From contig NZ_AP012326.1 of the NCBI RefSeq assembly GCF_001042595.1, positions 124,001-188,000 on the forward strand: a stretch of DNA of 64,000 bases, given 5' to 3'. The translations under genes were made by a program, and so were the position numbers. The number at the start of each line of letters is the position of its first letter. Position 1 is the first letter of the stretch. The DNA comes from Bifidobacterium dentium JCM 1195 = DSM 20436 (GTDB lineage: Bacteria; Actinomycetota; Actinomycetes; Actinomycetales; Bifidobacteriaceae). The notes under the pieces were generated by a model, which did not search any database, was not told where the DNA came from, and saw only the letters and a list, made by a program, of their open reading frames with translations. This document shows, one piece after another, positions 1 to 63,483 of the stretch.

Positions 1-974
1 CGGCGGATATGGGTGTGACCGGTTCGGGCGCGGCCGATCCATGCTCCTCTCATCTCGCCAACGCATTGGTTGGCAATCCCACGGATGTTCCTGTTCTGGA
101 AATCACCGGCGGAGGAGTGCGTTTTACAGCACACGGCGATATGGTCGTGGCCGTGGCCGGTGCTCCCGCACCAATCACCATCATCGGCAAAGCCACATGG
201 AACAGTGGCTTGGGTGCGCAACGTAATGCGGGAAACCAGTCGCATGCATCCGAACGTACCGTCGTGATTCGGCAGGAGGCCATGCTGTTGCGTGACGGCG
301 AAGTCATCGAAATCGGCGTTCCGACCAGCGGATTGCGCGACTATCTGGCGGTACGCGGCGGATTCGACGTGGCCCGCTCGCTCGGCTCCGCTGCGACCGA
401 CACCATGAGCGGCATCGGACCCAAGCCGGTCGCGGCTGGGCAGCTCCTACCGGTGCTTTCGCCGATCGGACGCCATCCATCAACGATGCGTGGCCCGCGC
501 CCAAACGGCGGGCACGGAAACAGCATAGGTCTACCGGAACCATGGCCCGAGCATCTACCGAAATCCGACGACATTACGGAGCTGCATGTGCGTTTGGGGC
601 CGCGCGACGACTGGTTCACTGCGACGGGAATCAGCGACTTTTTCGACCAGATTTGGACGGTCACCGCGCAATCGAACCGTGTAGGGCTGCGCTTGCAGGG
701 CGAACGTTCGCTGGAACGGCGTGATGCTACGGAATTGGCGAGCGAGGCAACGTTGCCGGGCTCCATCGAGGTGCCGACGAGCGGTCAACCGGTCATTTTC
801 CTGCGCGACCAACCCGTGACCGGAGGCTATCCGGTCATTGCCGTGCTGACGTCTGAATCGCTGATTCTAGCCGGGCAACTACCGCCGGGCGCCAAAATTC
901 GCTTCCGAATGTCCGATTCTCCAGAATCAGACAAACAGAACACACAATCACAAGAGCATAGGGAGGCCCGGTAA
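1..974 (+). CDS. pxpC: 5-oxoprolinase subunit C-like / biotin-dependent carboxyltransferase (PxpC/KipA family), 5' end outside window
   Basis: The reading frame is already open at base 3, and the visible protein begins within the conserved N-terminal block (ADMGVTGSGAADP, then LANALVGNP and LEITGGGVRF). The true start therefore lies upstream, and it may be fused to a PxpB/KipI part. PxpC works with PxpA and PxpB to cleave 5-oxoproline to glutamate with ATP. The stop overlaps the ATG of the biotin carboxylase gene by one base, so the two are translationally coupled. The last ~20 residues follow an in-frame palindromic repeat (SDSPESD) and look like a non-family C-terminal tail. The family call is firm; the exact substrate is inferred from the family. 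Confidence 0.85.
   Translation, partial: ADMGVTGSGAADPCSSHLANALVGNPTDVPVLEITGGGVRFTAHGDMVVAVAGAPAPITIIGKATWNSGLGAQRNAGNQSHASERTVVIRQEAMLLRDGEVIEIGVPTSGLRDYLAVRGGFDVARSLGSAATDTMSGIGPKPVAAGQLLPVLSPIGRHPSTMRGPRPNGGHGNSIGLPEPWPEHLPKSDDITELHVRLGPRDDWFTATGISDFFDQIWTVTAQSNRVGLRLQGERSLERRDATELASEATLPGSIEVPTSGQPVIFLRDQPVTGGYPVIAVLTSESLILAGQLPPGAKIRFRMSDSPESDKQNTQSQEHREAR
910..933 (+). repeat. 24-bp palindromic element, single copy, in frame in pxpC
   Basis: Left arm TGTCCGATTCT, centre CC, right arm AGAATCAGACA (one mismatch to the usual right arm). It is read in frame as SDSPESD near the C-terminus of the PxpC-like protein, ~20 codons before the stop. Confidence 0.9.
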
Positions 975-2794
975 TGCCCAGACTGCAGCGAATCCTGATC
1001 GCCAACCGCGGCGAGATCGCGGTGCGCATCATCCACGCGTGCCATGACACCGGTCGTACGGCCATTGCAGCTTACGCCGATCCGGATGCCGACGCGCTGT
1101 TCGTACACTTGGCCGACGAGGCCTATGCACTGCATGGGGTGGATGCAAAAAGCACGTATCTCAACATTGACGCGATTATAGAGACCGCCAAAAAAGCGCA
1201 TGCCGACGCCATACATCCCGGCTACGGGTTTCTTGCCGAAAACGCGGACTTTGCCGAAGCGGTGGCCGCCGCCGGCATGGCATGGATCGGGCCGGGAGCC
1301 GACACCATCCGCATGCTCGGCTCCAAAGTCGAAGCCCGGCGTATCGCGGCCGAAGTGGGCGCACCCATGGCCCCTGGCACCACCGAACCCGTACGCGATC
1401 CGTCCGAGGTCGTGGCATTCGCTGAGCGACATGGCCTTCCGCTGGCCATCAAAGCCGTGTATGGCGGCGGCGGGCGAGGCTTGAAGGTCGTGCACCGGCT
1501 GGAAGATGTGCGCGAGGCGTTCATGTCAGCCACGCATGAGGCCGAGCTTGCGTTCGGCAACGGGGATTGCTTCATCGAACGTTTTCTGGCACGTCCCCGT
1601 CATGTGGAGGTGCAGGTGCTGGGCGACCGAACCGGCAGCGTTGTCGCAGTCGGCACACGTGACTGTTCGCTGCAGCGTCGCAATCAGAAGCTTATCGAGG
1701 AGGCGCCGGCTCCGTTCCTGCCGGATGAGATCACGCGGCGGCTTGAATCGGCGGCCGTCGCCATCTGTAAGAAGGCGTGCTACGAGAGTGCCGGAACGGT
1801 GGAGTTTCTCGTTGATCCGGACGGCACCATGTCGTTCATGGAGGTTAACACGCGTATTCAGGTGGAACATCCTGTTACGGAGGCGGTGACAGGCGTCGAT
1901 CTGGTCGCGGCGCAGCTTGCGATTGCCGAAGGCGCGAGGATTCGCGAGATTCCCGGCCTGGAAGACGGCTGCACGCCTGCCGTGCATGGTCACGCCATCG
2001 AATTCCGTATTAACGCGGAGGATCCGGCGTTGGGTTTCGTTCCTTTTCCCGGCACCGTTGACGGATTGCGGGTGCCGACCGGCATCGGTGTTCGTTTTGA
2101 TTCCGGTGTCGAAGCCGGCGGTACGATTCCCGGTCAATTCGATTCAATGCTGGCCAAGCTGGTGATTGCCGCGCCTTCGCGCGAAGTTTGCCTGGCCCGC
2201 GCCCGCCGCGCATTGGCTGAGATTGCGGTTGCCGGCATTCCGACGGTTGTTCCGTTTGACAGGGCGGTGCTTGAGCAGCCCGCTTTTGTTGCGGAAGATG
2301 GCGACTTCGGCGTGTACACCCGTTGGATTGAGGAGGAGTTCCTGCCATCGGTTGATGTTGCGGCGTTGTCGGGAGGAGCCTGCGGTAGACGGGCCGCGCC
2401 GACGGATCCCGTTGAAAGCTGGATTGAGATTGATGGGCGGCGCGTACGTCTCGGCTTGCCTGCAGGGCTTGCCTCGCTCGCCTCCTTAGCTGCAGGTTTG
2501 TCCGATTCTGGTGAATCGGACATGCAGAGTGCGTTTCTTGCCCCGCGAATGTCCGATTCTGGTGAATCGGACAACCATGGCGGAGGTACGCCTCTTGAAT
2601 CCACGATCACTGGCACCTTGGTCCGTTGGCTGGCTGATGACGGCGCGCAGGTATGCGAGGGAGATTCGATCGTGGTGCTTGAGGCCATGAAGATGGAGAC
2701 CGAAATCGCGGCGTCCGCGTCGGGTACGCTGCATCGGTCCGCGAAGGTCGGCGATTTCGCCCAATATGGCGAGAATCTGGGATTCATCGAATAG
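974..2794 (+). CDS. Biotin carboxylase with C-terminal biotin carboxyl carrier domain
   Basis: The 606-residue protein has an N-terminal biotin carboxylase unit (ANRGEIAVRI; GYGFLAENADF; the glycine loop AVYGGGGRGLKVV; EVNTRIQVEHPVTE) and a C-terminal BCCP domain with the biotinylation motif EAMKMET, the modified lysine being about residue 573. It would carboxylate biotin with ATP and bicarbonate. Biotin carboxylase/BCCP genes are often found beside pxpBC, which suggests a role in the oxoproline complex rather than fatty acid synthesis; that is inference. The linker between the two domains (about 510-533) carries two in-frame palindromic elements coding SDSGESD. A GGGAGG ribosome site precedes the ATG. 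Confidence 0.9.
   Translation: MPRLQRILIANRGEIAVRIIHACHDTGRTAIAAYADPDADALFVHLADEAYALHGVDAKSTYLNIDAIIETAKKAHADAIHPGYGFLAENADFAEAVAAAGMAWIGPGADTIRMLGSKVEARRIAAEVGAPMAPGTTEPVRDPSEVVAFAERHGLPLAIKAVYGGGGRGLKVVHRLEDVREAFMSATHEAELAFGNGDCFIERFLARPRHVEVQVLGDRTGSVVAVGTRDCSLQRRNQKLIEEAPAPFLPDEITRRLESAAVAICKKACYESAGTVEFLVDPDGTMSFMEVNTRIQVEHPVTEAVTGVDLVAAQLAIAEGARIREIPGLEDGCTPAVHGHAIEFRINAEDPALGFVPFPGTVDGLRVPTGIGVRFDSGVEAGGTIPGQFDSMLAKLVIAAPSREVCLARARRALAEIAVAGIPTVVPFDRAVLEQPAFVAEDGDFGVYTRWIEEEFLPSVDVAALSGGACGRRAAPTDPVESWIEIDGRRVRLGLPAGLASLASLAAGLSDSGESDMQSAFLAPRMSDSGESDNHGGGTPLESTITGTLVRWLADDGAQVCEGDSIVVLEAMKMETEIAASASGTLHRSAKVGDFAQYGENLGFIE
2499..2573 (+). repeat. Palindromic element doublet (51-bp period), in frame in the biotin carboxylase linker
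   Basis: Two 24-bp copies at 2499-2522 and 2550-2573, arms TGTCCGATTCT and GAATCGGACA around GGT. The 27-bp spacer ends in CCCCGCGAA. Both read SDSGESD; together with the spacer they add exactly 25 codons to the loop joining the carboxylase and carrier domains. Confidence 0.93.
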
Positions 2795-2850
2795 TCTGCA
2801 CTTGCGTATGCGAACGTCTTGCGTATGCGAACGTCTTGGAGGAGAGGGAC

Positions 2851-3879
2851 ATGCGTACAAGCATTTTGGATTGGCGGCACTACCCGACCATTGCGAGAAT
2901 CGCGAACATGGCCGCTTGCGATGTCGGCCGCGGCTCGGAGACGTTGATGACGTATTCCCGCGGCGACCTGTTTCATGCCGCCCGTCATTTGGTTTCCGGC
3001 AGAGTAGGGCGTTCCGGTAGGAACGGTCTGCCGGCCCGGGCGCTGGTGGTTACCGGATTCTTCATTCCGAAGGCCGACCAGCCGGCCGCCGAGACGGACG
3101 GTCCGTTAGGTGCGTTGGAGGTGTGCATGGCGTTGCGTGCGATTGGCGGAGACGCATGGCTGGTCAACGACGAATGCTGCGAACCGGTGATCCGCCCGGC
3201 GGCGTTGGGATTCCTGCCGGAGGACCATGTGCTCATCGCACCTGATGTGTCCGATTCTCCAGAATCGGACAATTGGAGCATGAACAGTGCCCCGCGTTTG
3301 TCTGATTCGGGAGAATCGGACAAACGGGCACACGGCGGCACCCCGTTCGACGCCTGGCTGAATCGCGTGATCGACCTGGTGCGCGCCGAAGGCATCAGCA
3401 CCCTGATCTACATCGAGCGCGTAGGTCCTGCCCGCGACGGTAATCCGCACAACATGCGCGGCATTGACATCACTGAATGGACCGCGCCCCTCAGCCAATT
3501 GACTCTCATGGGACTGCATACCATCGGCGTGGGTGACGGCGGCAATGAAATCGGCATGGGCCGCGTCGAGGATTATGCCATCGAGGGCGTGGTGGACCAC
3601 GGTATGGATATCGCGTGCACGGTGTCGACGGACCAGCTTGTGGTGGCGGGCACGTCGAATTGGGGCGCTCATGCGTTGGTGTGCGTCATGCGCGCGTTAG
3701 GCCGCACGGAGGTGGATCCGTATATGGAGGTCGAGTGGCAGCGCGTGGTGTTGGACGTGATTGTTGCGCACGGTGGGCTTGATGGTGTGCATATGACGAA
3801 TGTTGCGACTGTGGATGGCCTTGATTCCGACCGTTATTTCGCGGAGATCATGGCGCTCGCATCCGTTGCGCGCCGGTGA
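2851..3879 (+). CDS. DUF4392 protein, D-glutamate cyclase-like
   Basis: This 342-residue protein carries signatures of the DUF4392 / D-glutamate cyclase C-terminal family: ETDGPLGALEV, VDHG-type segments and DGGNEIGMGRVED. Vertebrate DGLUCY of this family interconverts D-glutamate and 5-oxo-D-proline. That fits a gene placed directly after 5-oxoprolinase-type genes, so the operon may channel D-glutamate or oxoproline. An alternative TTG start lies at 2836, but GGAGGAGAGG sits ideally before the ATG at 2851. Two in-frame palindromic elements (residues ~134-140 SDSPESD and ~151-157 SDSGESD) form an insertion between family-conserved blocks. Confidence 0.8.
   Translation: MRTSILDWRHYPTIARIANMAACDVGRGSETLMTYSRGDLFHAARHLVSGRVGRSGRNGLPARALVVTGFFIPKADQPAAETDGPLGALEVCMALRAIGGDAWLVNDECCEPVIRPAALGFLPEDHVLIAPDVSDSPESDNWSMNSAPRLSDSGESDKRAHGGTPFDAWLNRVIDLVRAEGISTLIYIERVGPARDGNPHNMRGIDITEWTAPLSQLTLMGLHTIGVGDGGNEIGMGRVEDYAIEGVVDHGMDIACTVSTDQLVVAGTSNWGAHALVCVMRALGRTEVDPYMEVEWQRVVLDVIVAHGGLDGVHMTNVATVDGLDSDRYFAEIMALASVARR
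3248..3322 (+). repeat. Palindromic element doublet (51-bp period), in frame in the DUF4392 gene
   Basis: Copies at 3248-3271 (centre CC, peptide SDSPESD) and 3299-3322 (TGTCTGATTCG left arm, peptide SDSGESD). The 27-bp spacer ends in GCCCCGCGTT, resembling the spacer end in the biotin carboxylase doublet (GCCCCGCGAA). Confidence 0.93.
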
Positions 3880-3920
3880 CGCATCGAGCTGGTCTGACAC
3901 GCCGACGGGCTGTTCTCGAC

Positions 3921-3950
3921 TGGACAACGATGCCCGTTCGGCGGTAATAT
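3921..3950 (+). promoter_or_regulatory. Candidate sucP promoter
   Basis: TGGACA at 3921-3926, an 18-bp spacer and TAATAT at 3945-3950. The -10 box overlaps the left half of the LacI-type operator, which would let a repressor block initiation directly. Confidence 0.5.
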
Positions 3951-3967
3951 CGAACCGGTTCGATATT
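3946..3967. promoter_or_regulatory. LacI-type operator upstream of sucP
   Basis: A perfect 22-bp palindrome with core TATCGAACCGGTTCGATA, 66 bp before the sucP ATG. The same core recurs at 8104, 11535 and 11597, so one LacI-family regulator not encoded in this window probably controls this block. Confidence 0.8.
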
Positions 3968-4033
3968 CAGGGTGGACGATATCCGCCGTTGAACAATCGC
4001 AAACAATCATGATTTGGAACCGAGGGAGGTCCC

Positions 4034-5548: not shown

Positions 5549-5568
5549 CATACGGGCCTGCATCCGCC

Positions 5569-5606
5569 ATTGTCCCTCCCGTGCCGGCAGGCGTGGGAGG
5601 GACAAT
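5569..5606 (+). terminator. Hairpin after sucP
   Basis: A 12-bp perfect stem (ATTGTCCCTCCC with GGGAGGGACAAT) around a 14-base loop, 20 bp after the sucP stop. There is no U-tract, so it may be a stabilising 3' hairpin or a weak terminator before yesL. Confidence 0.6.
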
Positions 5607-5661
5607 TCGGCATTTCGGACGATGCGGCCCGTATCCGGCCCTTGCATGTAAGGTGAGCACC

Positions 5662-6318
5662 ATGCCAAAGATGTCAAAGCTCTTCGATCAGAACAACATG
5701 TTCTTCGCCATCATGGGCGTACTGTTCGACCTGATCATCCTTAACGTACTCACGCTGCTGTGCTGCATTCCGATTGTCACCGCCGGCGCCGCGTTCACGG
5801 CCATGCACAGCGTGCTGTGGCGTATGGTCCGCCATGAGGAGACGTACGTTGCACGCCAGTTTTTCGAGTCGTTCAAACGTAATTTCAGGCAGTCGCTCCT
5901 GCCTTGGCTCGGATTGCTGCTTGCCGCCGTCGTGCTTGCCGTCGATGGCATGCTCGCATGGTCGATGGCGTCCATGCGTGGCCCGCTTGTCGCCTGCGTC
6001 GCCTTTGCGGGACTGGTGGTCATCGCCATTGCGCAGTATTTTTTCCCACTGCTGTCACGCTACGAAGACCCCACTCCGGTGCATCTGCGGAACGCCGCCA
6101 AACTTGCGCTCGGCTTCTTTCCACGCACCTTGTGCATGCTGGTGATCCTCGTCGGTTTCGCCGTGCTGTATATGCAGTTCTTCGTCTATATGATTCCGCT
6201 GCTGCTGTTGATGGGCGTCACGTTGCCGCAGTATTGCTGTGCTTGGATCTACAACTGGATTTTCCGGCGTATCGACGGTGAGATTGACACGGGAGGCCGG
6301 ACGATTCCGCGATCATGA
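5662..6318 (+). CDS. YesL family (DUF624) membrane protein
   Basis: A 218-residue membrane protein with several hydrophobic segments and the YesL signature near the N-terminus (LLCCIPIVTAGAAFTAMHSVLWRMVR). YesL proteins are usually encoded beside CUT1 carbohydrate importers; their biochemical role is not established. The ATG at 5662 is chosen because AAGGTGA stands 6-7 bases before it; an upstream in-frame extension crosses the sucP terminator and is not credible. The 3' end overlaps the convergent GH13 gene by six bases. A second yesL-like gene occurs at 34885. Confidence 0.82.
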   Translation: MPKMSKLFDQNNMFFAIMGVLFDLIILNVLTLLCCIPIVTAGAAFTAMHSVLWRMVRHEETYVARQFFESFKRNFRQSLLPWLGLLLAAVVLAVDGMLAWSMASMRGPLVACVAFAGLVVIAIAQYFFPLLSRYEDPTPVHLRNAAKLALGFFPRTLCMLVILVGFAVLYMQFFVYMIPLLLLMGVTLPQYCCAWIYNWIFRRIDGEIDTGGRTIPRS

Positions 6319-11647: not shown

Positions 11648-13210
11648 ATGGACAAGTTCGTTCGACCGGGCATTGACGACCGCCCGGATTATGACAAGAC
11701 TTTGACTCCGGAGCAAAAGGAAGCGGTCACTCGTTTGGCGGCATCGATGCCCGAACGTCGAGCCGGGGATGCCAGCCAGACCGACGCGCAGGTGCAAGCC
11801 ACCAACCTCGCCGCGGCATCCGACGCCGCAGGCTCCGGTCTCGGCGCCATCGCCGCCGTGGACACCGCCGTACCGGATCCATCCTCCGCCTTCATGGACA
11901 TGCGCGATCCGATGGTCTCCGCCGACGGTCACCGCCCGACCAAAACGGAGGTCATCCGCCTCGGCATCGGCTTCACCATCTCCGCCGTGGCCTGTGCCAT
12001 CCCGTGGGTCGCCCTGAGTTCCATCATCCTGCCGCGCGTGTTCGAATCCATCGACCCGGCCAGCAAGGAGTCCATGCTCGGTCTGGTCAACATCTTCGGA
12101 TCCGTGGTGGCGCTGCTCGCCAACATCGTCTTCGGCACCTTCTCCGATCTGACCCGTTCACGGTTCGGCAAGCGCACTCCGTGGATGGTCGCCGGCGGTC
12201 TGGTGACCGGCCTGAGCATCGGCGCCGTCTCGCTGACCCATTCCGAACCGCTCATCATCATCCTGTGGTGCTGCGCGCAGCTCGGCTACAACATGATGCT
12301 CGCCCCATACGTGGCCACCATGTCCGACCGCGTGCCCGACAAGTTCCGCGGCACCGTCTCCGGTTTCTACGGCGCGGGCATCGCCGTCGGGCAGACCCTC
12401 GGCTCCTTCGTCGGCGCACAGCTGCTCAAGCAGGGCGAGGCCGGCATCTTCGGCGGTTGGATGATGGGCATGGCCATCTTCAGCCTCACCGGCATCGTCG
12501 TGGTGCTCATCTGGCCTCGCGAGAAATCCAATCGCGACGAGGCCCGTGGCGAACTCAACGTCAAGTCCATGCTCATGAGCTTCCGTCCGCCGAAGAACGC
12601 GCCCGACTTCTACTACGCGCTCGCCGGCCGCACCATGATGATGGGCGGCTACTGGATGATCAACACCTACCAGCTGTACATTGCGCAGGATTACGTGTTC
12701 GCCGGCGATCCCGGCGCCAACGTCAAGGCGGCGGAGCTTATCGCCACCATGGCCGTCATCACGCTGGTGGTCTCCCTGATTGCCGCCGTCGCAGCAGGTC
12801 CGATCACCGACAAAATCGGCATGCGCAAAGTGCCGGTCGCCTTGGCCAGCTGCCTGTTCGCCGTCGGTGCGCTGATGCCCATGCTCTTCCGCTCCGCCAC
12901 CGGCATGCTGCTGTTCGCGGGCGTCGCCGGACTCGGCTACGGCATCTATAACGCCATCGATCAGGCGCTGAACGTCTCCGTGCTGCCGAATCCGGAGGAA
13001 GCGGGCAAGGACCTCGGCATCCTGAACCTCGCCAATACGCTCTCCACCGTGATCGGCTCAGGCATGACCTCGATTCTCGTCGTGATCGTGAAGGCCGTGA
13101 TGGGCGTCTCCAAGACCCCGGTCGTCGCCTACACCGTGGTCTTCGGCGTGGCCATCGTCATCGTGCTCATCGCCGCCTTCCTGATCATGCGCATCAAGAA
13201 TGTGAAATGA
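11648..13210 (+). CDS. MFS sugar transporter with N-terminal cytoplasmic extension
   Basis: A 520-residue protein of the MFS sugar:cation type (TRSRFGKRTPWMVAGG between helices, LAPYVATMSDRVPDKFRGTVSG). Before the first helix there is a ~100-residue polar extension starting FVRPGIDDRPDYDKTLTPEQK, repeated nearly word for word in the next gene. The protein presumably imports a mono- or disaccharide in the sucrose/alpha-glucoside regulon, judged by two operator copies upstream. The exact substrate is unknown. Confidence 0.85.
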   Translation: MDKFVRPGIDDRPDYDKTLTPEQKEAVTRLAASMPERRAGDASQTDAQVQATNLAAASDAAGSGLGAIAAVDTAVPDPSSAFMDMRDPMVSADGHRPTKTEVIRLGIGFTISAVACAIPWVALSSIILPRVFESIDPASKESMLGLVNIFGSVVALLANIVFGTFSDLTRSRFGKRTPWMVAGGLVTGLSIGAVSLTHSEPLIIILWCCAQLGYNMMLAPYVATMSDRVPDKFRGTVSGFYGAGIAVGQTLGSFVGAQLLKQGEAGIFGGWMMGMAIFSLTGIVVVLIWPREKSNRDEARGELNVKSMLMSFRPPKNAPDFYYALAGRTMMMGGYWMINTYQLYIAQDYVFAGDPGANVKAAELIATMAVITLVVSLIAAVAAGPITDKIGMRKVPVALASCLFAVGALMPMLFRSATGMLLFAGVAGLGYGIYNAIDQALNVSVLPNPEEAGKDLGILNLANTLSTVIGSGMTSILVVIVKAVMGVSKTPVVAYTVVFGVAIVIVLIAAFLIMRIKNVK

Positions 13211-16909: not shown

Positions 16910-17962
16910 ATGGCAGCAACTATCTGGTACGAAAAGGACGCCGATCTGTCCGTGTTCGATGGCAAGAAGGTGGCCGTTATCGGTTACGGTTCCCAGGGCC
17001 ACGCCCATGCGCTGAACCTGCGTGACTCCGGTGTCGACGTGGTCGTCGGCCTGCGTCCGACCTCCAAGTCCGTGGAATACGCCAAGGAGCAGGGCCTGGA
17101 GGTCCAGTCCGTGGCCGACGCCACCGCCGAAGCGGATGTGGTGATGATCCTGCTGCCTGACCAGTATCAGGCCGCCGTCTACAAGTCCGAGATCGAGCCG
17201 AATCTGAAGCCGGGCGCCGCTCTGGCCTTCGCCCACGGCTTCAACATCCACTATGGCTACATCAAGCCGAGCGAGGATCACCCGGTGTTCATGGTCGCGC
17301 CGAAGGGCCCGGGCCACATCGTGCGCCGTGAGTATGCCGCCGGCCGTGGCGTCCCGGTCGTGGTGGCCGTCGAGCAGGATCCGGATGGCAAGACCTGGGA
17401 TCTGTGCCTCGCCTATGCCAAGGCCCTCGGTGCCCTGCGCGCCGGCGCCATCAAGACCACCTTCACCGAGGAGACCGAGACCGATCTGTTCGGCGAGCAG
17501 GATGTGCTCATGGGTGGCATCAACCACCTGTGCGACATGGGCTTCGACGTGCTGACCGAGGCCGGCTATCAGCCGGAGATCGCCTACTTCGAGGTGTTCC
17601 ACGAGCTTAAGATGCTGATCGATCTGGCCAACGAGGGTGGCCTGAACAAGGCCCGTTGGTCCTGCTCCGACACCGCCCAGTACGGCGACTACACCTCCAC
17701 CGTGATTACCGAGGAGACCAAGAAGCGCATGCAGTATCAGCTCAAGCGCATTCAGGACGGCTCCTTCGCCAAGGAGTTCATGGATGACCAGGCCGCCGGC
17801 GCGCCGAAGTTCAAGCAGCTGCAGGAGGAGTACAGCCACCCGCATCTGGAGACCGTCGGCCCGAAGCTGCGCGCCATGTTCTCCTGGAACAACCAGGTGG
17901 ACGCCGATGCCGATATGGCCGAGTCCTTCAACGGTAAGATCGCCCGCACCCAGGTGCAGTGA
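16910..17962 (+). CDS. ilvC1: Ketol-acid reductoisomerase 1
   Basis: A 350-residue class I enzyme converting acetolactate or acetohydroxybutyrate to the dihydroxy acid of valine/isoleucine synthesis with NAD(P)H and Mg2+. The Rossmann loop [17 protein letters not shown] is followed by [26 protein letters not shown] and the knotted C-terminal domain with [10 protein letters not shown] metal ligands. AAAAGGAG precedes the ATG. A terminator follows, so ilvC1 and ilvC2 are separate units. Tandem ilvC paralogues are known in Bifidobacterium. Confidence 0.97.
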
Positions 17963-18064: not shown

Positions 18065-18272
18065 GATTTTCGGCTCTTGACTCGGTGATTTTTCGGTGCT
18101 ATGGCTCACCTTTTGGACTGAGTGGCGGTTTAGGAGTGCGCTCGGGTAGGATAGACCCCAGTTTGCAGGACAAAATCCATGCACGAAAACACGAATTTCA
18201 TATCTGCGAATGGTAGAAACCCGAACGCTTTGGTGGCGTTCACCCCACTACGATAAAAGGAGTGCCAATACA

Positions 18273-19322
18273 ATGGCTGCACAAATCTGGTACGAGAACG
18301 ACGGCGATCTCTCCGTCCTCGATGGCAAGAAGGTTGCCATCATCGGTTACGGTTCCCAGGGCCACGCCCATGCGCTGAACCTGCGTGACTCCGGTGTCGA
18401 CGTGGTCGTCGGCCTGCGTCCGACCTCCAAGTCCGTCGAGCAGGCCAAGGAGCAGGGCCTGGAAGTCAAGTCCGTTCCGGAAGCCGCCGCTGAGGCCGAC
18501 ATCATCATGATCCTGGCTCCGGATCAGTACCAGCGCACCATCTGGGCCAACGACATCGAGCCGAACATCAAGCCGGGCGCGGCCATCGCCTTCGCCCACG
18601 GCTTCAACATCCACTACGGCTACATCAAGCCGAGCGAGGATCACCCGGTCTTCATGGTCGCCCCGAAGGGCCCGGGCCACATCGTGCGCCGTGAGTACGC
18701 CAACGGCCGTGGCGTCCCGGTCGTGGTGGCCGTCGAGCAGGATCCGCGCGGCGACGCTTGGGACATCACCCTGGCCTACGCCAAGGCCCTCGGTGCCCTG
18801 CGCGCCGGCGCCATCAAGACCACCTTCAAGGAAGAGACCGAGACCGATCTGTTCGGCGAGCAGAACGTGCTCATGGGTGGCGTGAACAAGCTTGTCGAAA
18901 TGGGCTTCGAGGTCCTCACCGACGCCGGCTATCAGCCGGAGATCGCCTACTTCGAGGTCTGCCACGAGCTCAAGATGCTCGTCGACCTCATGAACGAGGG
19001 TGGCCTGAACAAGGCCCGTTGGTCCTGCTCCGACACCGCCCAGTACGGCGATTACACCAACACCGTCATCAACGAGGACTGCCGCAAGCGCATGCAGTAC
19101 CACCTGGGCCGCATCCAGGACGGCTCCTTCGCCAAGGAGTTCATCGACGATCAGGATGCCGGCGCTCCGAAGTTCAAGGAACTGCAGGAGGAGTACGGCA
19201 ACGTTCGCATCGAGACCGTCGGCCCGAAGCTGCGCGCCATGTTCTCCTGGAACAACGGCCAGGACGACGACGCCGATATGGCTACCTTCACCGGCAAGAT
19301 CGCCCGTTCTCAGGTGCAGTGA
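18273..19322 (+). CDS. ilvC2: Ketol-acid reductoisomerase 2
   Basis: A 349-residue paralogue of ilvC1, identical over long stretches (the Rossmann loop, [20 protein letters not shown], the metal-binding domain), with differences concentrated at [11 protein letters not shown] and the C-terminus. Both copies keep all catalytic motifs, so both should be active; differing regulation or cofactor/substrate balance may explain their retention. The ATG at 18273 has AAAAGGAG upstream; the extension to 18210 lacks a ribosome site. Its own terminator is split by the IS3 element. Confidence 0.96.
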
Positions 19323-45938: not shown

Positions 45939-48911
45939 ATGGCGTTCGTCAAAGACATGATTCGCATGTGGCTGCGATCGTGGAAGCGATTCGTCTCGAT
46001 CGCCATGATTACCCTGCTCGGCGTGGCCGTACTCACCGGCATCTACGCGGGATGTCGCGATGCGTTCCTCGCGTCGGACCGGTTCTTCGACGCCCAGGGC
46101 ATGCATGATATTCAGGTGTTATCGACGGCTGGGCTGAGCGATGCCGATGTCACCGCGCTGCGACGGGTCACTGGCGTACGGAAGGTGCAGGCCGAGCGCT
46201 CGCAAAGCGTAACCATCGATGTGGGCGGCGACAAGTCCGTAACCATGCAGGAAATCGGCACGAACGGCATCGACCAGCCATACCTGCAGGAAGGTCGCAT
46301 GCCGACCAAATCCGGTGAGGTCGCAGTTACCAAGCAATTCATCAAGGATTCCGGCCATACGATCGGCGACCGCATCACCGTCACACCTGAAGCATCCCAA
46401 GTGTCCGATTCTGGAGAATCGGACACTTCAGCGGTGTCGGATGAACAGTCGCCGGAATTCCCGACGGAGCTGCGAATCGTGGGCGTGGTGCTTGATCCTC
46501 AGAACCTGAGCAATCCTGACGGATATTCGGCCATGACCTCATTCCGTTCGACTGCGACGAGCGATTACACGTTTTTCGCGCCATCCGATGGCGTGACCGG
46601 CACCACCTATACGTCGGTCACTCTGCTGGTCGACGGTGCGGCAGACGAAAGCACGTTCGACGAATCCTACGAAACCATCGTCGGCAAAGTCATGAACCGC
46701 ATCAAAGGCAAAACGAAAACCAATCGTCAGAAAGCACGACGGCAGGAACTCATCGATGCGGGACAGAAGAAAATCGACGAAGCGCGAGACAAAGCCAATC
46801 GGCAATTCGCGGATGCGCAGAAACAGATAGACGAGAATCGCAGTCAATTCAATCAACAGATCGATCAGATTGTGGCACAGCAAAGCGCAATGCTGGGCAC
46901 AGGTGCGACCATGGACGAATCCACCCGTGAAACCATGCGTGAAACAGTGATCTCCAGCAGTCCGCAGCTCCAGGAAGCCAAGGCGCAATTGGACGCGGCG
47001 CAATCGCAATTGGACGAGCAGAGGAACAGTGCCGAACAAACCTTCCAGGATAAGGAAGATGAGCTCGAAAGCAGCGTGCCGAACGTGCGCTGGTACGTGC
47101 AGGATCGTTCATCCCTCGGCGGATACAGTGCGCTCAAATCCGACCTGAGTTCGATCCGATCCATCGGCAACGCATTCCCGGTCGTGTTTCTACTGGTCGC
47201 GGTGATGATGAGCCTGACCGCCATGGCGCGCATGGTCGAAGAGGACCGTGGCCTTATCGGCACCTACATCGGCCTCGGTTACGGACGATTGCAGGTCGCC
47301 GCGCGCTACATGCTGTTCGCACTGCTTGCCTGCCTGATTGGCGGCGGCCTTGGGCTATTGCTTGGATTCCTTGGCATTCCAGCGTTTTTGCTGATTGTGA
47401 TACAAGGCATGTATGTGCTGCCGGGCGTGCGATTCGAGTATGACTGGCTGTATGGATCGCTTGGTATCGCGCTGTTCGTGGTCGGCGTACTCGGTGCGAC
47501 GATCTACGCGTGCGTCGAAGAGATGCGGCAGACGCCCGCCGGCTTGATGCGTCCGAAAGCCCCGCGCGCAGGTTCGCGCATTCTATTGGAGCGGATTACG
47601 CCGATTTGGAGTCGTTTGGGATTCCTAAGCAAGGTTACTGCGCGCAATATCTTCCGTTTCAAGTCGCGCCTGGTCATGACGGTCGGAGGCGTTGCCGGAT
47701 GCACGGCGTTGATCATATGCGGGCTTGCGATCAACGACACCGTGGCGGAACTTGGCGTCAAACAGTATCGCGATATCTACCGATACGATGTGATGGTCGT
47801 TGCGAACGATACCGATGCGGATGCAATGCGGGCGAAGTTGCGAGCGGACGGGCGTACGACTTCGACCATGGACATACGTGTCGAATCCGGTGATCTGGCG
47901 AACGATGAGGGAAGCGAGGGCATCCAACTTGTGGTGGTGCCCGAGGAGCATCTGGATGAACTGGGTGAGATGGTTACGCTCAAGCCGGTCGCGTCCGGAT
48001 GGGATGGTGTGCGCAAGTTCTTCGGACTGTCCGATTCTGGAGAATCGGACAGTAAAGCAGTCGAAACCACGTTGCGAATGTCCGATTCTGGAGAATCGGA
48101 CAAACGGAGTGGCTCGAAGGCGGTGTTGGGCGACAGTGGGGTGATCGTGTCGCAGTCGGCGGCCAACGCTCTGGGCGTTAAGACCGGCGATACGGTGAAT
48201 CTCACCAACGGCGATGGCATTCAGGCCAAGGCCAAGGTGAGCGAGGTGACGCGTAACCTCATAGGTTCCGACATCTACGTGAGTGAATCGTATTATGGCA
48301 AGCTGTTCGGTTCAGGGTCCGGAATGTCCGATTCTCCAGAATCGGACAAATCGGATTCCGGCGGCTCCCTGACCTGGAACGCCGTATACGCCAAGCTCAC
48401 CGGATCCGACGATGCGCAGATCGCATACGCCAACACCCTCGAAAAGGATGATTCGGTGATGAAGACGGTGTGCTGCGCGGACATGGCCGCCAGCTTCAAA
48501 TTTGACCTCATGGGCGCGGTGGTCGCCCTGATCGTTGCGCTTGCGGGCGGTCTGGCGCTTGTGGTGCTGTTCACGCTTGCCAATACGAATGTGTCGGAAC
48601 GCGTGCGCGAGATGGCCACGTTAAAAGTGCTGGGATTCTTCGATCGCGAAGTGCATCGGTATGTGAATCGAGAGATGATGATTCTGACGGCCATGGGAGT
48701 GGTGATCGGTTTGCCGATAGGTCGATGGGTCGGTGGTCTGCTCACGGCTGCGCTGAATATGCCGGCATTGTATTTCGAGGTGGAGGTCAAGCCGATGAGT
48801 TACGTGATTGCGGCGGCGGCGACCATGGCGTTTGCGCTGTTGGTGCAACTGTTCGTGAATCCGGTGCTTGACCGGATCGAGCCGGTCAGTTCGTTGAAGT
48901 CGGTGGAGTAA
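45939..48911 (+). CDS. Large FtsX/MacB-type ABC permease without a linked ATPase
   Basis: 990 residues: an N-terminal helix (FVSIAMITLLGVAVLTGIYAG), an extracellular domain, a Gln/Glu/Lys-rich coiled coil (~270-385), one FtsX domain with four helices (~405-540), a second extracellular domain (~600-830) and a final FtsX domain (MATLKVLGFFDREVHRYV). Such permeases drive lipoprotein, peptide or envelope processes with a partner ATPase, which is absent from both flanks. Four in-frame palindromic elements add SDS[G/P]ESD peptides at ~156, ~698, ~715 and ~797, all in the predicted extracellular parts. Confidence 0.85.
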   Translation: MAFVKDMIRMWLRSWKRFVSIAMITLLGVAVLTGIYAGCRDAFLASDRFFDAQGMHDIQVLSTAGLSDADVTALRRVTGVRKVQAERSQSVTIDVGGDKSVTMQEIGTNGIDQPYLQEGRMPTKSGEVAVTKQFIKDSGHTIGDRITVTPEASQVSDSGESDTSAVSDEQSPEFPTELRIVGVVLDPQNLSNPDGYSAMTSFRSTATSDYTFFAPSDGVTGTTYTSVTLLVDGAADESTFDESYETIVGKVMNRIKGKTKTNRQKARRQELIDAGQKKIDEARDKANRQFADAQKQIDENRSQFNQQIDQIVAQQSAMLGTGATMDESTRETMRETVISSSPQLQEAKAQLDAAQSQLDEQRNSAEQTFQDKEDELESSVPNVRWYVQDRSSLGGYSALKSDLSSIRSIGNAFPVVFLLVAVMMSLTAMARMVEEDRGLIGTYIGLGYGRLQVAARYMLFALLACLIGGGLGLLLGFLGIPAFLLIVIQGMYVLPGVRFEYDWLYGSLGIALFVVGVLGATIYACVEEMRQTPAGLMRPKAPRAGSRILLERITPIWSRLGFLSKVTARNIFRFKSRLVMTVGGVAGCTALIICGLAINDTVAELGVKQYRDIYRYDVMVVANDTDADAMRAKLRADGRTTSTMDIRVESGDLANDEGSEGIQLVVVPEEHLDELGEMVTLKPVASGWDGVRKFFGLSDSGESDSKAVETTLRMSDSGESDKRSGSKAVLGDSGVIVSQSAANALGVKTGDTVNLTNGDGIQAKAKVSEVTRNLIGSDIYVSESYYGKLFGSGSGMSDSPESDKSDSGGSLTWNAVYAKLTGSDDAQIAYANTLEKDDSVMKTVCCADMAASFKFDLMGAVVALIVALAGGLALVVLFTLANTNVSERVREMATLKVLGFFDREVHRYVNREMMILTAMGVVIGLPIGRWVGGLLTAALNMPALYFEVEVKPMSYVIAAAATMAFALLVQLFVNPVLDRIEPVSSLKSVE
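46402..46425 (+). repeat. Palindromic element, single copy, in the FtsX-type gene
   Basis: Perfect 11-bp arms around GG; reads VSDSGESDT in the first extracellular domain. Confidence 0.93.
48028..48102 (+). repeat. Palindromic element doublet (51-bp period) in the FtsX-type gene
   Basis: Copies at 48028-48051 and 48079-48102, both perfect palindromic arms around GG; read SDSGESD twice with spacer peptide SKAVETTLRM between them. Confidence 0.93.
48325..48348 (+). repeat. Palindromic element, single copy, in the FtsX-type gene
   Basis: Perfect arms around CC; reads MSDSPESDK in the second extracellular domain. Followed by an SDSGGS codon run. Confidence 0.93.
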
Positions 48912-56753: not shown

Positions 56754-56812
56754 TTTGTTGGGATAAGAAGGGTTTTGAGATGCGAAAGCCTCTCATGGGC
56801 GATGCTCTTTTT

Positions 56813-59343: not shown

Positions 59344-59396
59344 AGATGCGGTGGGCGGAAACCGGCTGAAATGCACAGAAACCGGTCTAAATACAC

Positions 59397-59445
59397 GAAA
59401 ACCGGCTGATTTTCCACACTATATGCTGGGAATCAGCCGGTTTTT
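59397..59445. terminator. Bidirectional terminator between permease and thiG
   Basis: AAAACCGGCTGATT pairs with AATCAGCCGGTTTT; runs of A on the left and T on the right serve both strands. The repeated ACCGG motifs just upstream (59360-59385) could form weaker alternatives. Confidence 0.85.
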
Positions 59446-59491
59446 GCTAGATATATGGGACTATGCGACGGTTATATGACGGTTATGCGCG

Positions 59492-60406
59492 TCAGCCGAT
59501 ATAGTCGGCTTCGTTCGTCGGGCTGGACGGCACGGCGTGGTCTTCCGTAACCTTGCCCAAGCCGGACAGATATGCCTCACGGCCGGCTTCAATCGCCTTC
59601 TTGAAGGCGCGGGCCATCAGCGGAATGTTGCCGGCGGAGGCGATCGCAGTGTACGCCATCACCGCGTCGGCGCCCATTTCCATGGCTTCCGCGGCCTGAC
59701 TCGGCCGGCCGATGCCGGCGTCGATAATCACCGGAACATTGGCATTCCTGATAATCACTTCGATGAAGTCGCGTGCACGCAGGCCCTTGTTCGAGCCGAT
59801 CATCGCGCCGAGCGGCATCACACAGGCGGCACCGGCATCTTCGAGGCGCTTGGCTGCGATCGGATCGGGGAACATGTACGGCATGACCACGAAACCTTCC
59901 TTGGCGAGCATCGCCGTGGCCTTGATGGTCTCCTCGTTATCGGGCAGCAGATACTTCGCCTCGTGTTCGATCTCCACCTTCACGAAGTCCGTCTGGCATA
60001 CCTCGCGCGCCAAGCGGGCGATGCGCACCGCCTCCTCGGCATTGCGCGCGCCCGACGTGTTCGGCAGCATGGTGATCCCTTTGGGAATGTAGTCGAGCAG
60101 GTTGTTTTCGGTGGTGCGGCAACGGCGCAACGCCATGGTGACGATCTGCGTGCCGGCGTTCTCGATCGTGGCCTTGATGAGGTTCAGATCGTAACGGCCG
60201 GAGCCGAGAATGAATCGGCTGGTGAACTCATGTCCGCCGAGAATCAGAGGGTCTGCGCTGCCGGTGGCAATTTCGTCGTATGCGTGCGCATCCGGTTCCG
60301 GCAGAATCGCGGTATTCGTGGTGGTGCCGACCAGCTCGTCGAGCGTGGCGTTCGGCGCGGTCGCAAAATCCTTTTCGGCTGTGGTTACGGTGTTTTCGGT
60401 ACTCAT
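59492..60406 (-). CDS. thiG: Thiazole synthase
   Basis: 304 residues; [22 protein letters not shown], the Schiff-base Lys region [17 protein letters not shown] and [21 protein letters not shown] are ThiG hallmarks. It condenses 1-deoxyxylulose phosphate, an imine and ThiS thiocarboxylate to the thiazole of thiamine. It is longer than usual (~255) by an N-terminal extension of ~45 residues, which may not be translated from the first ATG. Last gene of the riboswitch-controlled operon. Confidence 0.96.
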
Positions 60407-60436
60407 CGTCGGGTCCTTTCGGTTGATTGAGTTTGC

Positions 60437-61150
60437 TTAGGCGTCTTCTTCGCCGAGAATCAGGCGGGTGATCATATTCGCTTCATGGCAGGCGACCACG
60501 CCCACGCGCGGAGCCATCAGGCCGGCACCCGGTACCGGGGCGGTTTCGCCGTCGCCGCAGAAATAGAAATTCTTTGAGACGCGTCGTGTGCTCACCAGAT
60601 TGGAACTGCGGAATCCGGCCATGCCGGAGGCGCTCACGAGCTTCTTGCTTGGCAGGTTCTCCAGTACCGCGTTGACCAGCATGGTTTTGTTCTCCGGCAC
60701 GTCAAACGCCTCGCAGATGATGTCTTCGTGTTCGAAGAGCGTCGGCACGTTCTCATCGGTCACCTTGACGGTGTCGACGGTGATGTCGATGAACGGATTG
60801 ATCTGGCGCAGGTTGCTGCGCAGCGCCTCAGTTTTGTACTGGCCGAGATCCTTAAGGAAATACTGCTGGCGATTGAGGTTCGTCATGTCTACGCGGTCGA
60901 AGTCAATCAGATGCAGGTGGCCGACGCCGATGCGGGTGAGCGCCACGGCGATCGTCGAGCCGAGGCCGCCGCAACCGCAGATGGCCACGCGTGCGGCATC
61001 CAGTTTATCTTGGGTGGCCGCGGTATGGCGGTCGAGTAGGGCGGCGCGGATCTCCTCGCGACTTACGAGCGTTGCCGGATCGGGGAGGCCGTTGAATGCG
61101 GTTTGGCGTGCTTGGATTTGCTCGGGGGTTGCGGATGGTTCAAAGGTCAT
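60437..61150 (-). CDS. thiF: ThiS adenylyltransferase
   Basis: A 237-residue E1-like enzyme: the nucleotide loop VAICGCGGLGSTIAVAL, LIDFDRVDMTNLNRQQY and RSNLRQINPFI. It activates the ThiS C-terminus as an adenylate for sulfur transfer. There is no C-terminal rhodanese or CXXC zinc motif pair, consistent with the shorter ThiF form. It lies 30 bp before thiG and 248 bp after thiS. Confidence 0.93.
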   Translation of the reverse strand: MTFEPSATPEQIQARQTAFNGLPDPATLVSREEIRAALLDRHTAATQDKLDAARVAICGCGGLGSTIAVALTRIGVGHLHLIDFDRVDMTNLNRQQYFLKDLGQYKTEALRSNLRQINPFIDITVDTVKVTDENVPTLFEHEDIICEAFDVPENKTMLVNAVLENLPSKKLVSASGMAGFRSSNLVSTRRVSKNFYFCGDGETAPVPGAGLMAPRVGVVACHEANMITRLILGEEDA

Positions 61151-61224
61151 GGTCGTGTCTTGTTTCCGTTCGTTTGCGTGTGATTGGGTGCGGGCGTGCG
61201 CGGCCCGGCATGTACCGTGTCCGC

Positions 61225-61305
61225 CGCGTACAGGCGGCTTCCGTCTCCCCGCCTGGCCTCACATTCGTGGCCAGCCAGTATCCGTCGCGTACAGGCGGCT
61301 TCCGT
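61225..61305. repeat. 20-bp direct repeats in the thiS-thiF gap
   Basis: CGCGTACAGGCGGCTTCCGT occurs at 61225-61244 and 61286-61305, period 61 bp. Each copy with its upstream bases can fold (the first as CCGCC/GGCGG). No ORF is supported in the 248-bp gap. Confidence 0.8.
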
Positions 61306-61398
61306 GGAACGTTCGCGGCGGTCCCGGTTCTCCGGTGTGATTGGCCGAGCCTCACGTTTGACTCAGGCGCGCCTGTTCGCGACTCGCTTGGTGTGGGT

Positions 61399-61593
61399 TC
61401 AGCCGCCCTGTACGAAGGTGACGATTTCCAAGGTGTCGGTGCCTTTGAGCTGAGTCTGTGCACGCAGTGTGCGCGGCACGATTTCGCCATTGAGTTCGAC
61501 GGCCACACGTTCGGCACGCAGTCCGCGTTGCTCAATCAGTTCGGCCACGGTGATCGGCGTGGCGATGTGCTCTTCCTTGCCATTGATGATCAT
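61399..61593 (-). CDS. thiS: Sulfur carrier protein ThiS
   Basis: A 64-residue ubiquitin-like protein starting MIINGKEEH and ending with the essential Gly-Gly (TFVQGG), the site of thiocarboxylate formation by ThiF. The reading frame is open far upstream, but only this last part is ThiS-like, and AGAAGGG stands 5-11 bases before the ATG at 61593. First gene of the operon; a 229-bp leader with two palindromic elements separates it from the riboswitch terminator. Confidence 0.93.
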   Translation of the reverse strand: MIINGKEEHIATPITVAELIEQRGLRAERVAVELNGEIVPRTLRAQTQLKGTDTLEIVTFVQGG

Positions 61594-61678
61594 GTTCGAT
61601 CCCTTCTGTTGTGCGATTCGGAACCGTTGGCATGCAACGGAATCCACCGCCGTGCCGCAACCTTGCCATTCGCGTGGA

Positions 61679-61753
61679 TGTCCGATTCTGGTGAATCGGA
61701 CACTCGTGGCGCCCGTAGATTGTCCGGAATGTCTGATTCTGACGAATCGGACA
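61679..61753. repeat. Palindromic element doublet (51-bp period) in the thiS leader
   Basis: Copies at 61679-61702 and 61730-61753 (second with TGTCTGATTCT left arm and a GACG centre). They are the only copies outside a supported gene; they lie between the riboswitch terminator and thiS, so they are transcribed as two hairpins in the 5' leader. Confidence 0.9.
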
Positions 61754-61822
61754 TCCACGAAACCTGCAGGCTGTACCGGCGGGCGGCGCGTTGATGGGAT
61801 TCCGTACCGAGGTTCCGATACG

Positions 61823-61852
61823 AAAAAAGGGTCTCCGAAGGAACCGTACCCT
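61823..61852 (-). terminator. Riboswitch expression-platform terminator
   Basis: On the minus strand AGGGT ... CC, loop, GG ... ACCCT is followed by TTTTTT. It lies 86 bp after the TPP aptamer and fits transcription termination when TPP is bound. Confidence 0.75.
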
Positions 61853-61937
61853 GTGAGGTGGTGCGCCCCTCCGTGACCCTGATTCACGCGATATTCGGTT
61901 ATCGCGAACGGAAGATTGAGATGCGCCTTGCAGCGCG

Positions 61938-62030
61938 AACAACCCGTCTCCTTACGGCGGCATTACCCGCATCAAGTCCTCGGTCGAAGTCTTGCGACTC
62001 CCTCTCAGCCTTTCGGCTCCCGTTCGGTTG
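61938..62030 (-). promoter_or_regulatory. TPP riboswitch controlling thiSFG
   Basis: Read on the minus strand the conserved aptamer parts appear in order: ACGGGAGC, GGCTGAGAGGGAG, GACCGAGGACTTGATGCGGG and TAATGCCGCCGTAAGGAGA. These are the thi-box P2/P3 bulge and the P4/P5 pyrophosphate sensor. It represses the operon when thiamine pyrophosphate is plentiful. Confidence 0.95.
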
Positions 62031-62113
62031 TGCCCCTATCTTCCCTCAGCCGCCCGACAAGATCGTCGGAATCAGGTGATGGATTGGCGTACTACCTGAA
62101 GATTCGCCTCTGA

Positions 62114-62335
62114 GTTGCGAGAGTCGGCCTGTTGCTCGACGGTGGCGTCCTTAAGTCCGTGTGGCTCGGGTTCTGGACTGCGAGAATCGGCCTGTTGCCC
62201 AACGACGGCAGCCTCAAATCGGTCTGGGAACGGCTCTTACCGTTGAGGAACGGGGCGATTCTCGCGGTTTGCAGCCCCAAACACACGGGCTCGAGGCCGT
62301 CACCGTCGAGCAACAGGCCGATTCTCGCGGCGTAT
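62114..62335. repeat. Array of ~60-bp modules in both orientations forming large imperfect inverted repeats
   Basis: The 17-mer CGAGAATCGGCCTGTTG occurs at 62181 on the plus strand; a one-base variant (CGAGAGTCGGCCTGTTG) lies at 62118, and the reverse complement (CAACAGGCCGATTCTCG) at 62311. A fourth, diverged module ends in CGATTCTCGCGG near 62256. The outer pair continues into GCTCGACGGT/ACCGTCGAGC. The array lies between the divergent riboswitch and the aldo/keto reductase; it has no supported ORF. Confidence 0.8.
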
Positions 62336-62409
62336 GCCCCATGACTGCTGCCCTAAGGATTCCCGAGCCAGTCAGTGGGTATGTGAGAATGAAATCAGGG
62401 TACGAGAAG

Positions 62410-63483
62410 GAGATGGCGTTGAAGGATTCAGCAACGGACGCAGTGCCAGGTGCAGTGATGGGCGAACTGGCAGGATTTACGATTCCTCGGCTTGGCATGG
62501 GAACGATGGCGCTGGCGATCGAGGGCCGGCCGGATCGTGACACGGCAATCCGCGCGATTCATGCCGGTCTGAATGCCGGCGTGCGATATCTGGATACCGC
62601 ATGGTCGTACTATCTGCCGAGCCGGCCCGGTACCGGAACCCCGGAGGATCTGGGCTATGGCGAGAAACTGGTGCGTGATGCGTTGGCGACCTGGGATGGT
62701 CCGCGCGATGAGGTGCTTGTCGCCACGAAGACCGGTTACCGTCGCACGATGGAGCCTGCCGTGCGAGTGTCCGATTCACCAGAATCGGACACTGACGATC
62801 CAGCAGCCCCGTGTGCATATTCCGCGGCACGCGATGACGATTCCGTAACACCTGCTATGCGGTCCGACCGATCTGCGGAACGTCAGCATCTGCAGGCCGT
62901 TGGCAGTCGATACGGTTGGATGGCGGATTCGCGGCCCGAAACGATGATTCGCGATGCGAAGGAGTCGGCCATGCGCCTCGGTGTGGAGGCGCTCGATTTG
63001 CTGTATTCGCATGGTCCGGATCCTGCGGTGGATTATGCGGATCAGATCGGTGCGCTCAAGCGACTGCTTGACGAAGGGGTGATCAGGAACGCCGGCATTT
63101 CGCGCGTGAACAACGAGCAGATTGACCTCGCCCGTGAGATTTTGGGAGATGGCTTGGTTGCCGTGCAGAATCAGTTCTCACCGTCATACCCCGACCCCGA
63201 ACATACGCTGGAACACTGTGAGAAGCTAGGTCTTGCGTTCGTCTGTTGGTCGCCATTGGGGGGATTCCTCGATGCGTTCGACCAACGCGCGTACGATGCG
63301 TTCCGCGTGATTGCCGATAAGCGTGGATGCTCCTACCAGCGTGTGGTATTGGCTTGGGAGTTGAGTCGCTACGACCGGCTGTTCACCATCCCGAGTGCCC
63401 GCAATCCGCATGAGATTCAGGATTCGTTCGCCGCTACCGAACTTACGCTTGCCGATGAGGAGCTTGGATTCCTGAATAGCTAG
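62410..63483 (+). CDS. Aldo/keto reductase family oxidoreductase
   Basis: ~357 residues with family motifs: FTIPRLGMGTMAL, GVRYLDTAWSYY (catalytic Tyr region), VLVATKTGYRRT, LDLLYSHGPDP and GVIRNAGISRVNNEQ. It reduces carbonyls with NADPH; the substrate is unknown. An insertion of ~55 residues follows the catalytic-Lys strand and contains one palindromic element (SDSPESD). The start is uncertain: 62341, 62389, 62410 and 62458 are all possible, and the conserved core begins only at the last. The open frame back to 62161 runs through the repeat array and is rejected. Confidence 0.82.
   Translation, partial: EMALKDSATDAVPGAVMGELAGFTIPRLGMGTMALAIEGRPDRDTAIRAIHAGLNAGVRYLDTAWSYYLPSRPGTGTPEDLGYGEKLVRDALATWDGPRDEVLVATKTGYRRTMEPAVRVSDSPESDTDDPAAPCAYSAARDDDSVTPAMRSDRSAERQHLQAVGSRYGWMADSRPETMIRDAKESAMRLGVEALDLLYSHGPDPAVDYADQIGALKRLLDEGVIRNAGISRVNNEQIDLAREILGDGLVAVQNQFSPSYPDPEHTLEHCEKLGLAFVCWSPLGGFLDAFDQRAYDAFRVIADKRGCSYQRVVLAWELSRYDRLFTIPSARNPHEIQDSFAATELTLADEELGFLNS
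62768..62791 (+). repeat. Palindromic element, single copy, in the aldo/keto reductase gene
   Basis: Left arm TGTCCGATTCA, centre CC, right arm AGAATCGGACA; reads VSDSPESDT. Placed in a loop insertion not typical of the family. Confidence 0.92.

Follow-up and report, generated by a model that had tools for sequence, protein, structure and literature searches.

Twelve copies of a 24-bp palindrome lie in a stretch of 64,000 nucleotides (the window, C1:124001-188000) of the complete genome of Bifidobacterium dentium JCM 1195 = DSM 20436 (2,635,669 bp; G000 among the genomes compared, which carry G numbers, their loci L numbers). These palindromes are probably binding sites set in helically phased arrays, and the likeliest binder predicted from sequence comparison is a protein of 294 amino acids that would combine an AbiEi-type antitoxin fold with a Vsr-like nuclease fold (the AbiEi-Vsr protein). 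A preliminary description had seen in the palindrome an insertion in unrelated genes, either a mobile or actively copied element or a DNA site tolerated through its coding phase. The second of these options is supported: the phase is the same in every genic copy, the arms are far more conserved than the spacers, and changes in the arms are uncompensated. The first is not.

Organization of the arrays

The palindrome is present, with up to three mismatches, at all twelve coordinates given in the preliminary description (12/12), and was found in none of 100 dinucleotide shuffles. At the same threshold the whole genome holds 75 copies, against none for a reversed-pattern control. Seventy of the 75 are located between 10.6 and 391 kb, the five outliers being at 1806935, 1806986, 2176503, 2189719 and 2189770, and the 72 kept matches of the first 400 kb form 31 clusters of one to five copies. 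Four pairs in the window are exactly 51 bp apart. When each neighbour pair was counted once over G000, 20 loci of the purA region and 44 named loci, the spacing was exactly 51 bp in 249 of 267 distinct pairs, the others being 48-50, 52, 102, 103 and 152 bp; G000 alone gives 35 of 39. The palindromic unit had been taken to measure 24 bp, which is too small, conservation reaching about ±18 bp, with YCYG at -18 to -15 from the palindrome centre. The G000 spacers are mutually unrelated except for one copied pair, the intergenic two-site arrays at C1:12266-12340 and 18163-18237 (L063), in which 24 of 27 spacer bases are identical.

Ten of the twelve window copies are in five genes and share one codon phase, as had been described; those at 61679 and 61730 are intergenic. 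Where the gene identities proposed earlier were checked, Pfam agrees with them: an FtsX-like permease, a PxpC-like carboxyltransferase (CT_A_B), a biotin carboxylase that includes a biotin-lipoyl domain, an aldo/keto reductase and a D-glutamate-cyclase-like protein. The genic copies are real, but most copies are intergenic: in the first 400 kb of G000 85% of the DNA was called coding, yet 49 of the 72 palindromes fall between genes. The other 23, in 9 genes, are all read in the SDS[GPA]ESD phase. Relatives (44 named loci, plus 12 from the purA region; 74% of this DNA was called coding) contributed 350 distinct copies, 276 of them intergenic and 74 genic, and again all 74 have this phase; random coding phases were seen neither in G000 nor in these other loci. 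The genic and intergenic counts are approximate because the gene caller was home-made. The palindrome is open in all three frames and the frame in use is the hydrophilic one; in the LivF and CrcB1 alignments the copies fall in variable N-terminal or linker stretches. The SDS phase may be favoured because, among the three open readings, it results in a short acidic hydrophilic linker.

Conservation of arms, spacers and positions

Eleven array pairs were compared between G000 and B. moukalabense (G051), two of them, with unequal counts, being used in part. The arms differ at 18 of 620 positions (2.9%), while equal-length spacers differ at 206 of 459 (45%) and intergenic flanks at 34%; the spacer length is kept in 17 of 20 cases. 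Many arrays occupy orthologous positions in both species. Comparison of the 31 G000 clusters with B. moukalabense showed that the copy number often shifts in steps of about 51 bp (4 versus 1, 1 versus 3), that some cluster places are empty and that five of the clusters cannot be placed. Relatives differ in the sites that they carry, and the same peptide at the same sites throughout the genus, as expected of ordinary ancestral sequence, was not seen.

An element of the Rickettsia or MITE (miniature inverted-repeat transposable element) kind, mobile and palindromic and selected to be harmless in proteins, would account for in-frame copies in unrelated genes, a trait shared with the Rickettsia elements, and for the spacer common to the arrays at 12266 and 18163. 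Nevertheless, this explanation appears very improbable. Many array positions are kept between species, the copy number changes in steps of about 51 bp, and the strict spacing goes with unrelated spacers. Moreover, in seven aligned filled/empty or changed sites no target duplication or fixed ends were evident, the difference consisting of blocks. In the absence of such an insertion signature, and in being mostly intergenic and phased, the arrays depart from the Rickettsia elements.

The 24-bp repeat with 27-bp spacers also recalls clustered regularly interspaced short palindromic repeats (CRISPR), and the palindrome is included among the 'Undetermined' repeats listed for B. dentium LMG 11045 and B. 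ruminantium LMG 21811 in the tabulation by Briner and others (2015; PMC4521832). The paper records no cas genes with these repeats, which also speaks against a CRISPR nature. Cas-less or relict CRISPR arrays are hardly conceivable here: there are 31 clusters of one to five copies in 400 kb instead of one or a few long arrays, some copies are in frame in genes, and the spacers correspond between species, drift by substitution and have conserved edges.

Both arms are perfect in 38 of 71 sites; one arm is changed in 30 and both are changed in 3 (4.6 expected), and in none of the 71 is the same change found in both arms. Therefore, the arms are better understood as protein half-sites than as the two strands of a hairpin. 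A hairpin or RNA function was rejected on this ground, and the window has no Rfam match. Changed arms face the array interior (19/49 versus 6/61, p=0.0005). In 31 matched sites of G000 and G051 the 4-bp palindrome centre is the same in 12; 3 sites have it inverted and the remaining 16 show other changes. Small inversions within the palindromes are possible.

Distribution in the genus

In the genus-wide scan that had been suggested, the G000 pattern was found in 20 of 112 genomes. A generic pattern (YGTNCKWTTC half-sites, one mismatch) gave at least five matches in 21 of 189 genomes of the family, all of one genus, and 0-2 in the remaining genomes. Two of the 21, G015 and G043, with genomes of the size of B. 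breve and B. longum, have five matches each, in the clcB-crcB neighbourhood of G015 and in the matching 20 kb of G043 (L093, L094). Since their CrcB1 resembles that of G040, these sites are read as imported DNA; both genomes were excluded from further counts, leaving 19 motif genomes. Another type of half-site, CGTACTTTTC, has 7-19 matches in each of G024, G031, G054 and G073 and a single match in two additional genomes, and the secondary half-sites differ between species. Phage and plasmid origins were considered and rejected: viral_contigs gave no stretch for the fuller pattern and one for a looser pattern, and one 281-base array region had no plasmid match. In the purA region of G018 (L104:6509-6640) three GAGAATNATTCTC-like palindromic repeats, 52 bp apart, stand just before a gene; they may be unrelated or analogous to the main palindrome.

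The AbiEi-Vsr protein as candidate binder

A protein able to bind the palindrome had been proposed for search, and sequence comparison now provides a candidate. It is a hypothetical protein of 294 amino acids, encoded at genome 102341-103222, about 21 kb to the left of the window, among the densest arrays; the densest 20-kb intervals of G000 and of G051 both contain its gene. According to the models, the protein consists of an AbiEi-type antitoxin fold (winged helix and antitoxin domain) joined to a Vsr-like nuclease fold. The modelled fold agrees with that of the AbiEi antitoxin family, and that of the C-terminal half with the catalytic domain of the EDxHD/Vsr-like nucleases, specifically of the homing endonuclease I-Bth0305I. 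Across 24 homologues the nuclease half has invariant acidic and lysine residues, which is only suggestive of an active site.

Orthologues (at least 285 bits) were found in 11 of the 112 genomes. These 11 all belong to the 19 motif genomes, and the remaining 93 genomes have no orthologue. Every one of the 11 carriers has arrays on both flanks of the gene, with lineage-specific half-sites. Ten of them have at least two sites per side within 1.2 kb of the gene by a lax generic motif, and in ten carriers there are sites 257-433 bp upstream of its start; the eleventh by the flank count, G024, has four palindrome-like units per side, at 52, 41 and 52 bp, with a different half-site. The half-sites flanking the gene are CGTACTTTTC-like in G073 and CGTCCGWTYC in G072. 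The predicted recognition helix reads DRRAxQRR in the eight TGTCC carriers and differs in the other three. Spacings of 40-41, 71-72 and 51 bp correspond to whole helical turns. In type IV toxin-antitoxin systems of the AbiE kind, AbiEi has as its genetic neighbour the nucleotidyltransferase toxin AbiEii. One neighbour of the gene in G000 encodes an EamA transporter, no toxin family having been searched for, and the other presumably an aldolase.

In streptococci (PMC7319586), two inverted repeats of 23 bp, separated by 3 bp, are bound by AbiEi monomers and form a unit of about 49 bp, and the operators of abiE in Streptococcus agalactiae and of Rv2827c in Mycobacterium tuberculosis have such repeats at their own promoter, up to four in tandem. 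The present system resembles these operators in its AbiEi-like fold (by model), in inverted repeats that would be read by monomers, in their tandem arrangement and in the unit size, 51 bp here. It differs in that its repeats occur on either side of the gene and at tens of further places, and in the additional Vsr-like half. By analogy, each monomer of the AbiEi-Vsr protein would recognize a single half-site through its N-terminal winged helix, and a 51-bp unit, equivalent to about five helical turns, would be covered by two monomers in inverted orientation. Binding of the protein to the palindrome in this manner would allow the upstream array to autoregulate its gene. The other arrays may assemble into phased nucleoprotein complexes that influence the chromosome around them, a role that we favour tentatively.

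Several observations weigh against this assignment. The 294-residue protein does not reach curated Pfam cut-offs, Foldseek alone gave no match at E 0.001 or better, and the alignment with 6Y8Q has a root-mean-square deviation of 7.3; a PDB sequence search gave one irrelevant weak match. Six of 289 genes, five of them besides the AbiEi-Vsr gene, reach at least 24 sites within 10 kb. Shared ancestry and conserved synteny confound both the association with carriers (Fisher, inflated by kinship) and the arrays on the flanks, and some spacings (87 and 91 bp) are outside the helical series. Eight motif genomes (G001, G019, G020, G031, G040, G054, G060 and G071) have no orthologue, and several of them hold 44-55 generic matches; an AbiEi-like gene is absent from all 20 regions with CGTAC-type sites that were fetched, each of 20 kb.

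These eight genomes, and the CGTAC arrays far from AbiEi-like genes, would be understood if the sites belonged to another DNA-binding protein, a nucleoid organizer or a global regulator, and the AbiEi-Vsr gene were just a neighbour. This seems rather unlikely in view of the arrays on both flanks and the lineage-specific half-sites in 11 of 11 carriers, of the same layout, built from other repeats, around further AbiEi-Vsr genes, and of a constraint that is weaker where the gene is missing. A TetR-family gene adjoining ftsY (genome 230683-231420; region 230683-231657) has a four-site array just upstream, and sites are just upstream of it in all nine site-bearing genomes of the 30 compared. As its helix-turn-helix region is near-identical in all 30, 21 of them without such arrays there, TetR specificity cannot explain the palindrome and this candidate was rejected.

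Constraint on the arms and presence of the gene

The constraint was followed as the ratio of arm to flank divergence. Where both species carry the gene it is 0.12-0.24: 0.17 for G000-G051 (reverse 0.14), with 29 of 71 sites unalignable, 0.20 for G069-G037, 0.12 for G037-G000, 0.23 for G029-G059 (reverse 0.24) and 0.21 for G006-G045. Gene-less pairs give 0.41 for G019-G020 (reverse 0.62), 0.54 for G040-G019, 0.27 for G060-G019, 0.78 for G019-G001 and 0.40 for G054-G031 (reverse 0.53). In mixed pairs the values are 0.24 for G069-G019 (reverse 0.51), 0.55 for G054-G073 and 0.41 for G031-G073, G069-G001 having just two usable sites. Pooled, the ratio is 0.18 for the five carrier pairs versus 0.64 for G019-G020 with G019-G001 (z 5.4), the pool being the analyst's own choice. 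Gene-less pairs were scarce and for the most part closely related, and a good many sites resisted alignment. In a reduced form of the comparison, G006-G045, a carrier pair, gave 0.31 and G040-G001 gave 0.84, with too few sites elsewhere. As a point against dependence on the gene, the G019-G020 arms are still more conserved than the flanks (8/279 versus 34/492, p=0.02). The arm constraint is strong where both species carry the gene, and weaker but not wholly gone where it is missing.

Other AbiEi-Vsr loci and a homing-like alternative

At 15 AbiEi-Vsr loci, three of them carriers of the main orthologue, the 1.2 kb upstream of the gene was compared with the 1.2 kb downstream, with 27-32 control intervals each. 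A shared flank repeat outscored every control at 13 of the 15, marginally at L188 (28.4 versus a control maximum of 26.9). The test failed at L178, where 28 of 31 controls were as high and the gene is near a contig end, and, by the control rule, at L171 (6 of 32 as high), though its own repeat is strong. The flank repeats differ in sequence between loci. In G000 a second paralogue (1996859) has CGTCGGTAGATTG half-sites on both sides, mostly 51 bp apart, and a third (1808018) has GGTTTGTTCGGACGAAAT half-sites on both sides; the repeats of G111 (L176) and G050 (L184) have an 82-bp period. Copies of the GGTTTGTTCGGACGAAAT module are also present in relatives, some distant from any AbiEi-like gene among the matches listed. 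The outlying palindromes at 1806935/1806986 are about 1 kb from an AbiEi-Vsr paralogue. That the outliers mark an isolated autoregulatory locus outside the cluster was rejected, the outlying sites being in or near unrelated genes.

The main rival to a regional DNA-binding role is a selfish, homing-like cassette, in which the AbiEi-Vsr nuclease would recognize the palindromic module and its gene would sit between two copies of its own target. The other arrays would then be vacant targets, or relics whose likeness conversion by the nuclease has maintained. The modelled I-Bth0305I-like half, its invariant acidic and lysine residues and the species-typed half-site variants speak for such a cassette, as do flank modules that are near-identical at some loci (L172, 94% over 214 bp; L177, 98% over 128 bp; L186, 100% over 75 bp). 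The target of I-Bth0305I, an EDxHD homing endonuclease, measures nearly 60 bp (PMC3943268); the C-terminal fold (by model) and a long palindromic or dimeric target are alike, whereas here the N-terminal half is AbiEi-like, the gene is bacterial and chromosomal without an intron, and many sites are uninterrupted. We nevertheless consider homing unlikely. Individual old sites show a purifying pattern, spacers are not homogenized, no empty-versus-filled gene insertion was demonstrated, and one nuclease, if active, would endanger a genome that has 75 sites. The regional DNA-binding role is favoured, with the proviso that a nuclease half fits poorly with arrays that organize the chromosome, just as selection acting on every site fits poorly with merely selfish targets.

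Some known systems offer partial parallels. In repetitive extragenic palindromes with their associated transposases (REP/RAYT) the gene is likewise flanked by palindromes that are also dispersed and persist where the gene is absent; here the protein models as AbiEi with a Vsr-like half and the sites are phased at 51 bp and also genic. The parS, Noc, matS and SlmA sites are likewise palindromes that bind proteins and do not extend over the whole chromosome, and the present arrays differ in being phased. The palindrome is not a ParB/parS element, as it differs from parS; the ParB_N matches in G000 come down to one protein, beside parS-like sites at 2.63 Mb near the replication origin.

Sites in the window and neighbouring features

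Table 1. Palindromes of the window, in window positions, with the matching places in B. moukalabense
Feature	Position	Strand	Context	B. moukalabense
Single palindrome, read SDSPESD	910..933		Near 3' end of CT_A_B (PxpC-like) gene	
Palindrome pair, 51 bp apart	2499..2573		Biotin carboxylase gene, linker before biotin-lipoyl domain	Also two
Palindrome pair, 51 bp apart	3248..3322		D-glutamate-cyclase-like gene	Also two
Single palindrome	46402..46425		FtsX-like permease gene	Two
Palindrome pair, 51 bp apart	48028..48102		Same FtsX-like permease gene as 46402 copy	One
Single palindrome	48325..48348		Same FtsX-like permease gene as 46402 copy	One
Palindrome pair, 51 bp apart	61679..61753		Intergenic	Matching place without sites
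Single palindrome	62768..62791		Aldo/keto reductase gene	Matching place without site

A few hundred bases from the 61679 pair there is a 28-bp direct repeat at 61217-61305 (93% identical, 61 bp apart). Long direct repeats at 16910-17487 and 18273-18850 (271 bp at 85% and 300 bp at 90%), 1,363 bp apart, are probably tandem paralogous genes. Outside the window, a CLC-type channel gene (G000 107864) is located between arrays in the 12 site-bearing genomes fetched for the purA region (L085-L104); it was not found in that region of 8 genomes without sites.

Implications

Solitary AbiEi-Vsr genes could quite possibly, if short of probably, represent a new gene-plus-site class, in which each gene has its own palindromic module on both sides. 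In some lineages the module would have multiplied to give helically phased arrays, tens of them, spread across hundreds of kilobases, in genes too, as a regional nucleoprotein domain or by homing-like drive, with constraint lost together with the gene. A description of the arrays as protein sites was not found in the literature searched, in which subscription journals were thinly covered. The strict codon phase provides a clean case of protein sequence yielding to a DNA site. Should the proposal be right, a repeat that has been printed as cas-less CRISPR would be explained, the solitary AbiEi-type proteins of bifidobacteria would gain a DNA target, and a gene-plus-dispersed-palindrome system built on a nuclease-fold protein would be added to those known. 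Moreover, since the flank repeats mostly differ among AbiEi-Vsr loci, the genus would offer a ready set for decoding the AbiEi recognition helix.
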